A DNA stretch of 64,000 bases, from assembly GCA_020442915.1 (NCBI GenBank), contig JAGRJD010000001.1:1-64000 (forward strand), given 5' to 3'. A program made the translations under genes and the position numbers. Source of the DNA: Thiothrix sp. (lineage in GTDB: Bacteria > Pseudomonadota > Gammaproteobacteria > Thiotrichales > Thiotrichaceae). This document shows, piece by piece, positions 31,519 to 62,165 of this stretch (its first letter is position 1; the number at the start of each line of letters is the position of its first letter). Under the pieces are notes generated by a model. That model had not been told where the DNA came from and searched no databases. It saw only the letters and a list, made by a program, of their open reading frames with translations.

Positions 31519-31634
31519 GGTGGTCTGTACCGGTGCTCCCGCAACACTATGTGGTGAACCCCGTCAGGTCCGGAAGGAAGCAGCGGTAGCGGCAGATGTG
31601 TGTGCCGGGATGTCGCTGGTGCAGACTGCCACCC
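31519..31634 (+). ncRNA. ffs: Signal recognition particle 4.5S RNA
   Basis: The apical domain is unmistakable: CAGGTCCGGAAGGAAGCAGC at 31565-31584, the Ffh-binding GGAA tetraloop and symmetric/asymmetric loops. CTCCCGCAAC lies upstream and TGTGCCGGGATGTCGCTGG downstream. The ends GGTGGTCTG and CAGACTGCCACC pair to close the long hairpin, which gives the approximate boundaries and a length near 115 nt, similar to E. coli 4.5S RNA (114 nt). The RNA targets nascent membrane proteins with Ffh and FtsY. It ends only 28 nt before the dnaX start codon and no terminator separates them. Confidence 0.95.
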
Positions 31635-55637: not shown

Positions 55638-58600
55638 TCATTGACCACCCGACGGTGATACCGGTGCCTGCGGCTGTGCAGGTGGCGGGTTTTGCGGCTG
55701 TACAGGCTGCCGGGGTACCGCAGTCCTGCTGATCCGCAACGGTAGGGACTTCCACAAGCCGCCCGCATTGATGGCCCGCCAGCCGTGCCGCAGCCAGCCC
55801 AGCACCGAAAATGCCAGCCACAAGGCCCAGGCCAGCATCAGCACCCGATAGATCCACAAGGGGGCACTGACCAGATCAGGCTGCGGCAGGACTGTCCCGG
55901 TACGATCCTGGTACCAGTTCAGGGCATAGGTACTGGAACCATTACCGGCAATCTGCATTTCCGGTCGCCCCAGCAGGCCATTGGCCACCGCCCCCATCAG
56001 GATCAGCAGCGCCACCAGCGTCAGCCCGGCCAGCAGGACCTGCATCAGGTTGAACTGCCACTCACGCAGCTGCAGCTGCTGTTTCTCACGCCAGCTGATG
56101 GCCATCAGCCACGCGGCCACCACGATCATCAAGGGGGTGGCGGTCTGGCTCAGCCCCACCGCCAGCAACAGCCACTGCCAGCCTTTCAGGGGCGTGAGCC
56201 CGGAACGCCCGAGCAGAAAGGCCAGAATGGCCAGTACCAGCAGCACACCCCAGAACAGCACCGCCGGCCCCATGGCCGGTCCACCGGTCCACAGAATCCA
56301 GCGCTCCTGTGACGGTTCAATACGGGCACGGGCATTGACGCTCGGCAGGCCGGTATCCACCGCCGGGAACCGGTACCGGAATCCGGCCGGTTCCGGATCG
56401 CGCCATTCCAGCACCACCTGCTGCTCACCCGGCTTCAGGCTCACGGTGATGCGGTTGTCCGTATTCTGCAGCTGCTGCTGCACGTCATCAACCCGCAGCT
56501 GCTGTACCCGGGCACCGACCGGCAGCTGGATATCATGACGCACGCCCCGGCTGCTCAGGATTGCCAGCGTCAGCTTCACGTCACTGGCACGCTTGCCGGC
56601 GCTGACCTCAAGCTGGCTGCTGCGGATGGTGACGGTCTGACCCGGCAGGCCTTTGGGACGACTCAGGTTCAGCACCAGCGTCTCACCCGGCCAGGGCAGC
56701 CACTCAGGCACGGTGAAACTGCCTTCCTCGACAAAACGGTTCACCGGAATGCCTTCTGGCTCCAGATGCCAGACCGGGCTGACCGCTACCGACCAGCGCT
56801 CCAGAAAATCGGCGGAATCCACCGCCTTCAATTCCAGTTGCTCCCCGAGTGGCAGGCGTGAAGACCAAGAAGCCTCATCCTGCCCTGCCCCCAGACTGAT
56901 GCGGATGTGCTGGTTACGGACCTCCTGCTGCTCGCTCATGGGCTGCTCGCCCGGCAACAGCGGAATGTTCAGGGTCAGGGGCAGGTCCGGTGGCGACAGG
57001 CGCGTGATGCGGGTTTCCACATACCACTCCAGCCCCAGATTCAGACGGCGCTCGATACGCACAAACACCGGCAGGATGCTCTGCTGCTCCGCCAGTCCCT
57101 GCCCGGTGCCGGACTGCACCCGGTTGAGCTGCAACTGTGACTCCGGCACACCGTCATCCTTGACCCCCTCGAGGGTCCAGTTCGGGTCCTGACTGCGCCA
57201 CACCACCTGATGCGGCTTCAAGGGCAGCAGCAGCGGCACCGAATTACGGGCCGGCAGCACCCCGCTCAGCTGCACCTGATGCAGGCCCTGCGGCACCTGC
57301 ATCCACAGGGTCTGACGCTCATCACGGCGCAGGGCTTGCACCCGCTCCCCGTCCATCAGCACCTGCTGCGGCATCCAGGTATCCTGCTGCCCGGACAGCG
57401 GAATGGCGGTATCGGTGGCAGCATGCACCCGCAGCATCAGGTTCAGACGGTTGTCGGTAACCAGAATCTGCATCTGTTCAATCTGGGCACAATCCGGCTG
57501 GCACTCGGGTGCACGGATCAGGCGCTGCTTCAGCTCCTGCAACAGCTCCGGCCCCGGCAGCGTTGCCGCCCGCCCGATGGCCGGCAGCAGCAGCGGCAGA
57601 ACCGCCAGCAGCCCCAGCACCGGCAGGTGTTTGCGCCAGGCCTTCCAGTCCGGCAGTGGCGGCAGCCATTTCAGCGGGCCACTCCCGTGTTTTACGGCAC
57701 CGGACGCCTCCCCGCCCAGGTCCGCCAGCCGCCAGCTCAGCCCCAGCAACAGCAGAATGCCCAGCAGTTTGATGAACAGATTGAGCCGTGGCCCGATCAG
57801 CCACAGACGGCTGGTTTCATCCGGACGTACCGGCCCGGACCAGTTCAGGCCCACGCTGCGCCACCCCCGCCAGTCCGGCAGTCCCGGTCCGGTCTGTACC
57901 ACACTGTTGGGGTCCATGGCACTGAGGTCCACCTGCTGGCGATAGGATTTTTTGGACAGCGATGCAGACGGTTTCATGACTGGTGCCGGTGGTGGTGCCG
58001 GCATCTGCCGGCCTGACGCATACTCATCCATGGCCTGTCCCTCCCTCTGCACCCTGTCCATGTTCATCTCCACCTCGGGTGCGATACCGGTCTGGGGCAC
58101 TGAAGCCTGCTGATAGGCATCGCCGCCGAAATCACTGTAACCGCCCTGCTCCAGCTGCGGGTACAGGCCGACACGTACGGTCTGGATCATGTAGGGCACC
58201 AGCACCAGTACGATCAGCAGCAGGCTGAACCAGCGGTAATAACCCAGCCACTGCTTCAGGTGCCCGGCAGGCAGCACGCGCCACAAGGCCAGCACCGCCA
58301 GCAGGTTGAGCCAGACAAAGCGCGGGGCACCGGCCTCCTGCCACACCAGCGCCAGCGCCAGCAGCGCAAACGTGCCCCAGGGCCAGCCATACAGATAGCC
58401 GACGGCCAGCGCGATGATCAGTACCAGAAACAGATCCAGTAGACTCCACGCCATCAGCCAGCTGGCCGGCACATTGTCGGTCCCGGAAGCAGCAAACAGC
58501 TGCCAGCCCGGCGGCAGGTACAGCGTGGTCTGCACCGACTTCAGGTCCTGCTGCCAGCCACTCACCGGCGGCTGCGAGCGGCTGCCCTCATAACGGCTTT

Positions 58601-59870
58601 CCGCCTCCAGATTGATCCGGGCCTTGCGGATTTCCACCCCGGCACTGTTGTCCTGCCCGCCTTCCGTGATGAACTGCGGCTGGCCATCAATGCGGACCCG
58701 GCCCAGCTTCAGTGCCGGCAGCACCCCCAGACGTGACTGCTGCTGCAGCTGCCCGCTCAGCCGGTCCTGCAGGGTATAACCGCCGCCATCAAAATCCAGC
58801 CACAGGTTGCGCACCAGATTCAGCTCGTTGCTGCCCTCAGGCACGGCCCCGCGCTGCACCACGTTCAGGCTCAGGCTGTCTCCGGCACTCAGGAGATAGG
58901 CCGGCAGGGATTTCCAGTCACCCGGCAGCAGGGTCTGGTTCGGATCAATACTGGGGGCACCGCTGACCTCGACCTGGCGCACCTGCGGATCGGCAGCCAA
59001 TACCCAGACCTCCTGTGTCGGCCAGGGTTCCTGACTTGCCGGCAGGGCGAAGCGGGTCTGATCGCCCACGGCGCGCCCGCTGATTTCCAGGGTCCATTCA
59101 CCGGGGCGCAACTGCACCTGCAGCCCCTGCCTGCCATCCAGCCGGGTCGGCAGGGAACTCTCAATCCGCAGCGGAATCATGCCATCCAGCAGTACCGGGG
59201 CCAGCACCGCATTGCGCTGCTTGCCGGACACGCGCAGGCGGATGGAGGTCAGCACCTCGACCGGGTGCGAATCCAGCACCTTGCGGAATACCTGCACATC
59301 CAGATCATCCTGTGCCACTTCGGTATTGTCCCCCGCCATCAGCCAGAGCTGGCCCTGGGCATTGAAATTGGGGTGGGCCACCGGCTGGCTGTTCACCTGC
59401 AGGCTGACCAGCCCGGATGCCGGTGTCACTGCCAGCGTGCGTGGCAGCTTGTCCCAGCTGAACTCCCCCTGGATCACATGCGGTCCCGCTGCCAGCCGGA
59501 CCTGCGGCACCCCGTCACGCGCCTGTACCAGCAGCGCCTGATTATCGTCATTGCGCACATTCTGCGGCCAGTGGGTACTGTCGCCGGGCAGCTGCACCAG
59601 CACCTCCCCGAACACCTGCCACTGCTGACGGAAAGTACCACCCTTCTCATTCAGGTGCAGCTCCAGGGTCGAGGGCCAGCTGCACTGGCGCACTTCAGCA
59701 TCAAACTGCCACGGACAGTCGAGGGTGGTTTCATCCTGCAGCACCCAGTCCACCCAGGGCTTGAGCGGCTCCGGCACCTGAGCGCGCTCCAGCGGGACCG
59801 CCCACAGCGACAGGGGGAGCATGAGGTACAGCAAACAAAACAGCAGACATGACAGGAAACGGATTTGCAT
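55638..59870 (-). CDS. Very large inner-membrane protein of unknown function
   Basis: 1410 residues; not recognised. Signal peptide 1-24 (FLSCLLFCLLYLMLPLSLWA). A first periplasmic beta-rich region to about residue 455 includes GPHVIQGEFSWDKLPRTLAVTPASGLVSL. Membrane cluster one follows at about 460-570 (LLDLFLVLIIALAVGYLYGW, LLIVLVLVPYMIQTV), then a Pro-rich cytoplasmic or periplasmic stretch (MPAPPPAPVMKPS), two more segments near 740 and 790, and a second large beta-rich region (LTLNIPLLPGEQPMSEQ). A final cluster of four segments (VLFWGVLLVLAILAFLLGRSG, LIVVAAWLMAISW...) ends with a Pro/Gln-rich tail. The alternation of large beta domains and membrane bundles suggests an envelope stress, sensing or transport role; this is inference. 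It appears to be a single-gene unit. Confidence 0.75.
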   Translation of the reverse strand: MQIRFLSCLLFCLLYLMLPLSLWAVPLERAQVPEPLKPWVDWVLQDETTLDCPWQFDAEVRQCSWPSTLELHLNEKGGTFRQQWQVFGEVLVQLPGDSTHWPQNVRNDDNQALLVQARDGVPQVRLAAGPHVIQGEFSWDKLPRTLAVTPASGLVSLQVNSQPVAHPNFNAQGQLWLMAGDNTEVAQDDLDVQVFRKVLDSHPVEVLTSIRLRVSGKQRNAVLAPVLLDGMIPLRIESSLPTRLDGRQGLQVQLRPGEWTLEISGRAVGDQTRFALPASQEPWPTQEVWVLAADPQVRQVEVSGAPSIDPNQTLLPGDWKSLPAYLLSAGDSLSLNVVQRGAVPEGSNELNLVRNLWLDFDGGGYTLQDRLSGQLQQQSRLGVLPALKLGRVRIDGQPQFITEGGQDNSAGVEIRKARINLEAESRYEGSRSQPPVSGWQQDLKSVQTTLYLPPGWQLFAASGTDNVPASWLMAWSLLDLFLVLIIALAVGYLYGWPWGTFALLALALVWQEAGAPRFVWLNLLAVLALWRVLPAGHLKQWLGYYRWFSLLLIVLVLVPYMIQTVRVGLYPQLEQGGYSDFGGDAYQQASVPQTGIAPEVEMNMDRVQREGQAMDEYASGRQMPAPPPAPVMKPSASLSKKSYRQQVDLSAMDPNSVVQTGPGLPDWRGWRSVGLNWSGPVRPDETSRLWLIGPRLNLFIKLLGILLLLGLSWRLADLGGEASGAVKHGSGPLKWLPPLPDWKAWRKHLPVLGLLAVLPLLLPAIGRAATLPGPELLQELKQRLIRAPECQPDCAQIEQMQILVTDNRLNLMLRVHAATDTAIPLSGQQDTWMPQQVLMDGERVQALRRDERQTLWMQVPQGLHQVQLSGVLPARNSVPLLLPLKPHQVVWRSQDPNWTLEGVKDDGVPESQLQLNRVQSGTGQGLAEQQSILPVFVRIERRLNLGLEWYVETRITRLSPPDLPLTLNIPLLPGEQPMSEQQEVRNQHIRISLGAGQDEASWSSRLPLGEQLELKAVDSADFLERWSVAVSPVWHLEPEGIPVNRFVEEGSFTVPEWLPWPGETLVLNLSRPKGLPGQTVTIRSSQLEVSAGKRASDVKLTLAILSSRGVRHDIQLPVGARVQQLRVDDVQQQLQNTDNRITVSLKPGEQQVVLEWRDPEPAGFRYRFPAVDTGLPSVNARARIEPSQERWILWTGGPAMGPAVLFWGVLLVLAILAFLLGRSGLTPLKGWQWLLLAVGLSQTATPLMIVVAAWLMAISWREKQQLQLREWQFNLMQVLLAGLTLVALLILMGAVANGLLGRPEMQIAGNGSSTYALNWYQDRTGTVLPQPDLVSAPLWIYRVLMLAWALWLAFSVLGWLRHGWRAINAGGLWKSLPLRISRTAVPRQPVQPQNPPPAQPQAPVSPSGGQ

Positions 59871-60691: not shown

Positions 60692-61012
60692 ATGTACAAC
60701 CTCAAATGGACCGATGAGGAAAAACAGCTGGCACGCAGTCTGTTCGACAACTGTCATCAGGCCGAACTGGAACACATGATGGCGGAGCTCAAGCAGCGTG
60801 CCGCCAGCATCAACACCCCGGAAGACATGTGGGCACTGCTCAATGACCTGAATCAGAGGCAGCGCGAAATCCAGTACAAATACGGTGATTACCGCTATTC
60901 CCAGCTGATCCTGCTATTCGGCAGGCTGGTGCGTGAGGGGCATCTGAAAATGGAGCAGCTGGAAAACCTGTCGGAGGACAAGCTGGTTTATATCCGCCGT
61001 ATCGTGGAATAG
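60692..61012 (+). CDS. Fluorescence recovery protein (FRP)-like protein
   Basis: 106 residues, all helical. The whole length aligns by eye with cyanobacterial FRP as I recall the Synechocystis protein: ELEHMMAELKQRAASINTPEDMW against its ELDGLLATVQAQASQI...DDLW segment, then KYGDYRYSQLILLFGRLVREG against KYDDRQSVIIFVFAQLLQEG. FRP detaches orange carotenoid protein (OCP) from phycobilisomes. Here the tryptophan is kept (W47), but positions matching the OCP-contact residues H53, D54 and R60 are L50, N51 and Q57, and no OCP gene is present, so a different partner is expected. FRP-like proteins are known in non-photosynthetic bacteria. GGGAG precedes the ATG. It is convergent with the minus-strand RNA. 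Confidence 0.75.
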   Translation: MYNLKWTDEEKQLARSLFDNCHQAELEHMMAELKQRAASINTPEDMWALLNDLNQRQREIQYKYGDYRYSQLILLFGRLVREGHLKMEQLENLSEDKLVYIRRIVE

Positions 61013-61035: not shown

Positions 61036-61306
61036 TGAAAAACCCCGCACAAGGCGGGGTTCAGGGGCTTCCAACATGAAGGCATGGGGAACCATCGCTT
61101 CCTCAAACGATTCAGGAGTCTTGCAGTTATCCCCCTGCGGACAGGGGGAATCACTGTGGGGATGCAGCATCTTGTTGTTATTGATGTTTCAGGCTGCCTT
61201 GTCCCCGGAGGGCTTGCTTGTCAAACTTGTTGTTATTGGTTTTTTCAGTCTTTGTTATTGTTGTTCTGGGGTTTGTTGTTGTTATTCTGTTTCTTGTTCT
61301 TCTTGC
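61036..61306 (-). ncRNA. Predicted CrcZ-like Hfq/Crc-sequestering small RNA
   Basis: About 270 nt, transcribed leftward from a predicted start at 61306. Five A-rich blocks follow each other on the minus strand, each containing AAnAAnAA motifs: at 61306-61290 (AAGAAGAACAAGAA), 61288-61272 (AATAACAACAACAAA), 61267-61251 (AACAACAATAACAAA), 61237-61226 and 61182-61171 (both AATAACAACAAG). Between the last block and the terminator is a perfect 7-bp hairpin with a tetraloop (61131-61148), and the RNA ends with the intrinsic terminator at 61037-61061. In Pseudomonas, CrcZ, CrcY and CrcX have this make-up: sigma-54 promoter plus five or six such motifs that bind Hfq with Crc and relieve catabolite repression. 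No protein-like frame explains the stretch on either strand. Those RNAs are 350-400 nt, so this one is shorter. Confidence 0.78.
61037..61061 (-). terminator. Intrinsic terminator of the CrcZ-like RNA
   Basis: On the minus strand AACCCCGC-CTTGT-GCGGGGTT is followed by TTTTTC-type sequence (the A-run at 61038-61042). This is a canonical 8-bp stem, 5-nt loop and T-tract. In the opposite direction it may also stop transcription of the convergent FRP-like gene, although the T-tract is poor there. Confidence 0.8.
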
Positions 61307-61316
61307 CAGTAACTGT

Positions 61317-61332
61317 TGCAACCCCCATGCCA
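61317..61332 (-). promoter_or_regulatory. Sigma-54 (-24/-12) promoter of the CrcZ-like RNA
   Basis: Read leftward, TGGCATGGGGGTTGCA matches the RpoN consensus TGGCAC-N5-TTGCW at 10 of 11 defined positions, with GG and GC separated by exactly 10 nt. The -12 C at 61318 predicts initiation at 61306, directly at the first A-rich block. Confidence 0.78.
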
Positions 61333-61547: not shown

Positions 61548-62165
61548 ATGCCATTATCGCCGCCACAAGCACGCCAGCTCATTCACACCCGCACCGTCAC
61601 CTGCCAGGGTTATGAACGGGAAGACGGACTCTGGGACATTGAAGGGCATATGGTGGATACCAAAAGTTACAGCTTTCCCAACCGGGACCGGGGCGGACGG
61701 ATCCAGGCCGGTGAACCCCTGCATGGCATGCGGATCCGCCTGACCATTGACACCGACCTGCTGATCCACGCTGCTGAACAAAGCACCGACTTCGCCCCTC
61801 ATGCCTACTGCCATGAGGTACCCCATTTTGTACACGGTCTGGTCGGCCAGCGTATCGGCCCCGGCTGGACCCAGCGCTGCAAGAACCTGATGGGCGGCAG
61901 CAGCGGCTGCACCCATATCACCGAGCTGCTCGGCCCCATGGCAACCACGGCTTATCAGACCCTGGTCAAGGTCCACTTCCGCAAAACCACGCAACCAGAA
62001 ACCGCGCCCGCGGCCACAACAGAAACAGACAGCAACCGGAAACCCCGTTTCATCGGCAGCTGCCATGCCCTGCAGGAAAGCAGCCCGGTCGTGCGTGATC
62101 ATTATCCGCACTGCTACCGTGCTCCGGCGCCGGAAACCGGTGCACAGACCCGCAGCGCTCCCTGA
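61548..62165 (+). CDS. DUF2889 domain-containing protein
   Basis: 205 residues. The start MPLSPPQARQLIHTRTVTCQGYEREDGLWDIEGHMVDTKSY and the block VPHFVHGLVGQRIGPGWTQRCKNLMGGSSGCTHITELLGPMATTAYQTL are the DUF2889 signature; conserved Cys and His residues (CKNLMGGSSGCTH) suggest a metal or cofactor site. Function is unknown. AAGGA upstream supports the ATG at 61548 rather than the frame opening at 61413, which would run through the inverted repeats. Confidence 0.85.
   Translation: MPLSPPQARQLIHTRTVTCQGYEREDGLWDIEGHMVDTKSYSFPNRDRGGRIQAGEPLHGMRIRLTIDTDLLIHAAEQSTDFAPHAYCHEVPHFVHGLVGQRIGPGWTQRCKNLMGGSSGCTHITELLGPMATTAYQTLVKVHFRKTTQPETAPAATTETDSNRKPRFIGSCHALQESSPVVRDHYPHCYRAPAPETGAQTRSAP

Follow-up and report, generated by a model that had tools for sequence, protein, structure and literature searches.

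A structured small-RNA family of the Thiotrichaceae with sigma-54 promoters and ARN-loop hairpins, proposed to act as an Hfq decoy

Results

The window, a 64 kb stretch of Thiothrix DNA, contains an interval without recognisable genes between an FRP-like gene, which ends at 61012, and a DUF2889 gene, which starts at 61548, both on the plus strand. The minus strand of this interval carries a predicted small RNA of about 271 nt (61306-61036), whose start is inferred from its promoter and whose end is inferred from its terminator. The FRP-like gene (PF18032) is convergent with the RNA, and the DUF2889 gene (PF11136), which is followed by a glucokinase gene, is divergent from it; the RNA is therefore read as a standalone unit and not as a leader. 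With the FRP-like gene (60692-61009; 61.9 bits with PF18032) this sulfur bacterium encodes a homologue of a cyanobacterial protein, the fluorescence recovery protein FRP. Elsewhere, the window encodes a putative membrane protein of 1410 residues with no Pfam match (55641-59870) and a bacterial small SRP RNA (31528-31624; RF00169, 72.8 bits).

On the minus strand the RNA gene opens with a sigma-54 promoter, separated by about 12 nt from the predicted start at about 61306. Four ARN runs come next, then a hairpin whose loop holds the fifth, and finally another hairpin and the terminator. The -24/-12 promoter, TGGCATGGGGGTTGC (61332-61318), has one mismatch to TGGCAC(G)-N4-TTGC(A/T). Strict TGGC-N7-TTGC sites occur seven times in the window, and A-rich blocks are found downstream of TGGCATGGGGGTTGC only. 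These AAnAAnAA blocks hold four to five ARN triplets each and comprise AAGAAGAACAAGAAA (61304-61290), AATAACAACAACAAA (61286-61272), AACAACAATAACAAA (61265-61251) and two occurrences of AATAACAACAAG (61237-61226 and 61182-61171). Five non-overlapping blocks compare with at most four when the 271-nt transcript was shuffled 5000 times with its dinucleotides preserved, and the region is the top 130-nt stretch of the window for ARN-block density when both strands are considered.

Blocks 1 to 4 form a leader, while block 5 forms the apical loop of a two-helix hairpin that is conserved. This hairpin belongs to a module (61219-61124, delimited by model R1, described below) made up of a AGCAAGCCC flank, stems P1 and P2 with the ARN apical loop, and a hairpin P3. 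Folding pairs GGGGA (61206-61202) with TCCCC (61162-61158) in P1 and GCAGC (61197-61193) with GCTGC (61168-61164) in P2, and P3 (TCCCCCTG/CAGGGGGA, 61149-61130) is supported by both the fold and model R1. P3 is followed by a T-rich tract in most relatives, and the P3 of the window lacks such a tract. Further downstream lies an intrinsic terminator, CCCCGCCTTGTGCGGGG-TTTTT (61059-61038), recognised by sequence and fold as CCCCGC-CTTGT-GCGGGG-TTTTT and missing from the output of a simple terminator scan. The original prediction had claimed a -24/-12 promoter, five A-rich blocks and a canonical terminator in a gene-free interval, and each of these was borne out. It had also described the blocks as consecutive and the hairpin as separate; blocks and hairpin are both real, but the fifth block sits inside the hairpin loop and only four lie in the leader.

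The interval itself is not conserved beside DUF2889 in the sister species, where no A-rich cluster is present, and searching relatives with its DNA sequence returned short A-rich matches only. A pattern combining a sigma-54 box with AAYAACAA, however, gave matches in 41 of 63 family genomes (some of them chance matches inside genes) and few matches when run backwards as a control. The candidate loci share a module composed of AGCAAGCCC, stem P1, stem P2 with a loop of about 23 nt (AATAAnAATAA), CCATGCCTCGACTCC and a terminator hairpin, and in some transcripts two or three modules follow one another. Where the original prediction had proposed to align this interval in related genomes, it is the module and its promoter, at other loci family-wide, that are conserved.

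Nine modules from other genomes served to train covariance model R1, the window being left out. The sole match of this model in the 64 kb is the module at 61219-61124, with 43.1 bits (E 1.4e-8), and in the family it finds 144 modules at 108 loci in 56 of the 63 genomes. The family was identified as the Thiotrichaceae by named records, and the module occurs in public records of Thiothrix, Thiofilum and Thiotrichaceae MAGs. Across the class, model R2 matched 3 of 369 genomes, all of them Thiotrichaceae, and none of the approximately 366 others, with only ten candidates per genome scored, so that weak matches may be missed. In 62 aligned modules, including that of the window, 91.7% of cells are paired (38-62% in slid controls), 16 of 17 base pairs show compensatory two-sided changes, and covariation is 0.508 compared with 0.06-0.12 for slid partners. 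The alignment behind these pairing counts was fitted to the structure; helix swaps are visible also in the raw sequences (GCAGGC/GCCTG, GTGGAC/GTCCGC, GCAAAC/GTTTGC and GTAGTT/AACTAC).

The ARN loop is the most conserved element of the 62 modules, with core adenines conserved at 97-100%. Unpaired CAAGCCC is conserved at 81-98% and CGACTCC at 58-75%, the latter being lost in several genera, and the ARN blocks of the leader are little conserved from one genus to another. An Rfam search of the window together with 12 related loci returned only the SRP RNA and a tRNA above threshold. Judged by these sequence comparisons, the RNA of the window is a member of a previously undescribed, structured and conserved small-RNA family of the Thiotrichaceae. 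Separately, three loci of one genus (L065, L067 and L068; genus g7) carry longer sigma-54/ARN RNA variants upstream of an ftsE-like gene, with only 14-16 bits against R2. Another pair of paralogous A-rich putative RNAs lies in genome G000 on contigs C5 (L004, ~1770-1510, minus) and C150 (L003, ~1770-1470, minus); they have no evident sigma-54 box, share an upstream palindrome, TTTACCGACTAACGGTAAACATTACTTTT, and are followed by terminator-like hairpins.

In Thiolinea and Thiofilum the core locus is yebC-ruvC-ruvA followed by the RNA (gene names are a reading of the translations), and the ruvA locus was read from upstream sequence in some Thiothrix. The genome of the window has three copies: one after ruvA on contig C55, and two extra copies on C33 (the window) and C145. 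The ruvA copy scores 69.2 bits compared with 43.1 for the window copy, and the C145 copy is weak at 24.7 bits. The new location that had been claimed for a CrcZ analogue is explained in that the window holds one copy specific to its lineage, and the core locus of the family comes after ruvA. As a side observation, about 5-20 kb separate hfq from an RNA locus in three genomes (G007 contig C33, G009 contig C34 and G014 contig C22).

A -24/-12 box lies upstream of the module at all 44 loci examined, including 27 found without use of the promoter pattern, and is strict at 42; in the window it is 113 nt upstream of the module. Of 41 distinct regions upstream of this box, 32 contain TGTC-N7-GACA, where 0.2 would be expected, the usual distance to the -24 element being 100-105 nt. 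A spacing of 10 occurs in one of the 41, and other spacings are rare. Across the genomes of the family, TGTC-N7-GACA is followed by a sigma-54 box 67 times, and in 59 of these cases a module lies close downstream; the activator thus seems to serve these RNAs almost exclusively. The window has a degenerate site, CGGCA-GAAAC-TGACA (61436-61422, minus), 104 nt upstream of -24, which agrees with the family consensus, TGTCA-N5-TGACA, at 8 of 10 positions; the chance of at least 8 within 98-108 nt is p = 0.0036. In the same genome, the ruvA copy has a perfect site, TGTCAAAAACTGACA, also at 104 nt, and the C145 copy has GGTCA-N5-TGACA at 106 nt.

Enhancer-binding proteins in the genome imply the presence of RpoN, but none of these proteins could be matched to the RNAs as their activator; the regions read around them contained no matching TGTC-N7-GACA site. 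GlrR/QseF was considered as the activator and is unsupported, since the spacing here is N7 and not the N10 of the QseF consensus site, TGTC-N10-GACA (PMC8745638).

Canonical Hfq is encoded on contig C79 of the window's genome (102 bits), with Y25 and K56 kept and the distal face intact. The distal face of Hfq is where CrcZ binds in Pseudomonas aeruginosa, and the Y25D change removes this binding (PMC4063720). Nearly all other family members tested also have canonical Hfq. The exception of note is G012 (~4.5 Mb, 100% complete), which has two modules and gave no Hfq match (PF17209) in a whole-genome search, nor within 80 kb near its modules; hfq may truly have been lost here, may have diverged, or may be hidden by masking or by a gap in the assembly. 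Besides the canonical protein, the window's genome encodes a second Hfq-like protein of divergent sequence; such a protein (G000 C57:2541-2735, L239) occurs in genomes of this genus and in none of the others tested.

Discussion

The Pseudomonas RNAs CrcZ, CrcY and CrcX are decoys that control catabolite repression, and crcZ adjoins cbrB. Like these RNAs of the Pseudomonadaceae (RF01675), the RNA described here is a standalone unit with a sigma-54 promoter and an upstream enhancer, has several ARN stretches that would fit the distal face of Hfq, and is present in more than one copy per genome. Unlike them, it belongs to another bacterial family, is unrelated in sequence and fold, and places ARN runs in covarying hairpin loops; its upstream site is TGTC-N7-GACA, and its locus is at ruvA or elsewhere and not at cbrB.

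We consider it somewhat probable that the RNA is a CrcZ-like but unrelated Hfq decoy, one of three copies, driven by sigma-54 with an enhancer-binding activator of its own. Sequence comparison establishes the family and its fold as well as the sigma-54 promoter and the common upstream site; transcription, Hfq binding, titration, and the identity and signal of the activator are inferred. In the proposed mechanism, some nutrient or stress signal would trigger an enhancer-binding protein on TGTC-N7-GACA, about 100 nt upstream, to drive sigma-54 transcription. The transcript would then display ARN runs, some in a single-stranded leader and one in the apical loop of the conserved hairpin, and these would bind the Hfq distal face. 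The RNA would thereby titrate Hfq from its mRNAs and small RNAs and relieve Hfq-dependent repression. This would be the working principle of CrcZ, achieved through an unrelated RNA with another upstream site and, it seems, with no need of Crc. Two observations speak against a pure decoy. The conserved unpaired AAGCCC and CGACTCC segments would not be needed by a pure decoy and hint at base pairing or another partner, and G012 has modules without an Hfq match. The low conservation of the leader blocks across genera also weighs against the proposed mechanism. The window copy is itself divergent, with a P3 lacking its T tract and a degenerate upstream site, and may be weakly expressed.

There are other possible explanations for these RNAs. 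The original prediction had read the locus as a CrcZ analogue that could extend the CbrAB-Crc system. Promoter class and ARN motif are indeed alike, and the Rfam CrcZ model (RF01675) gives a weak match over the A-rich part of the window; its 23.7 bits are, however, far below the cut-off of 95. Conversely, an authentic crcZ scores 306.8 bits with RF01675 and only 10.3 bits with R2. With neither model recognising the RNA of the other group, the two resemble each other in how they would work and not through common ancestry. The protein partners do not fit either. A CbrB search gave no ortholog above 44% identity, the matches at 38-44% being ordinary NtrC-type activators (NtrC, NtrX, an AtoC-like pair and two others), and no CbrA-like kinase was recognisable beside those matches with readable neighbours; several contigs are short, so that a CbrA encoded at a distance may have been missed. 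The sole Crc homologue has QET/GDWN/SDH where P. aeruginosa Crc has QDT/GSLY/SQH, that is, nuclease residues are kept, and its best solved relative is the Neisseria exodeoxyribonuclease 2jc5 (331 bits, compared with 231.8 for Crc). By sequence it looks like an active exonuclease III rather than Crc proper. The cbrA-cbrB-crcZ arrangement is, moreover, described only in Pseudomonas and Azotobacter (PMC8871633). True membership of CrcZ/CrcY/CrcX, with a role in CbrAB-Crc-Hfq catabolite repression, is therefore highly improbable. What stands of the earlier reading is a sigma-54-driven, ARN-rich RNA gene that plausibly works as CrcZ does, and its alternative suggestion of a separate Hfq sponge was the better half.

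The main rival to a decoy is an ordinary trans-acting base-pairing small RNA of class II type, in which ARN blocks and terminator serve Hfq and AGCAAGCCC and/or CGACUCCU would be the seed; CUCCU could mask Shine-Dalgarno sequences. Conservation of AAGCCC, and less so of CGACTCC, outside the helices favours this reading, as does the class II layout itself, ARN blocks with a Rho-independent terminator. We nevertheless regard it as rather unlikely, given that the ARN loop is the most conserved part, that CGACTCC is lost in several genera, and that modules are repeated within transcripts and copies multiplied within genomes, as titration predicts. It is improbable, to a greater degree, that the loops bind a protein other than canonical Hfq, for instance the second, divergent Hfq. 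The G012 modules and the second Hfq-like protein in the genus of the window would suit such a partner, but that protein was found in this genus only, canonical Hfq is present in nearly all other family members tested, and the spacing fits the ARN rule of the Hfq distal face. Another view accepts the family as real and takes the window copy to be a decaying duplicate, no longer transcribed or functional. Its low score beside the ruvA copy, its degenerate upstream site, the P3 without a T tract and its absence beside DUF2889 in the sister species are all consistent with decay. Against this, the promoter, the five ARN blocks and the further downstream terminator are intact, as are the helices, with compensating sequence in GGGGA/TCCCC and GCAGC/GCTGC, and we judge decay improbable as well.

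The proposed decoy can also be set beside other known RNAs. GlmY is a decoy for the RNA-binding protein RapZ. GlmY and GlmZ under QseF/GlrR share with the present RNAs the sigma-54 promoter and TGTC...GACA enhancer sites, and with GlmY there is the further likeness, proposed here, of acting as a decoy for an RNA-binding protein. The differences are a spacing of N7 instead of N10, a GlmY target that is RapZ and not Hfq, and the absence of ARN loops from GlmY and GlmZ; the Rfam models for both gave no match over the window and the 12 related loci. With class II Hfq-dependent small RNAs the family has in common an ARN-rich segment and a Rho-independent terminator, and it departs from them in its repeated ARN hairpin modules and its apparently dedicated sigma-54 enhancer.

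Hfq decoys under sigma-54 control have been described in Pseudomonas and Azotobacter, where they are tied to CbrAB and Crc, and a literature search returned nothing on such RNAs in Thiothrix. The broader proposal, which we hold to be evenly balanced, is that the Thiotrichaceae have independently evolved an Hfq-sequestration circuit, with an apparently dedicated TGTC-N7-GACA activator and multi-copy, modular ARN-loop RNAs, that switches Hfq without CbrAB or Crc. If true, filamentous sulfur bacteria would possess a family-wide, structurally conserved counterpart of the known decoys, and regulated Hfq titration would have arisen more than once. The compact design, one hairpin with one ARN loop, often repeated, would additionally offer a means to measure how ARN display relates to Hfq affinity. 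The common enhancer site points to a regulator in bacteria that are important for activated sludge and sulfur cycling.
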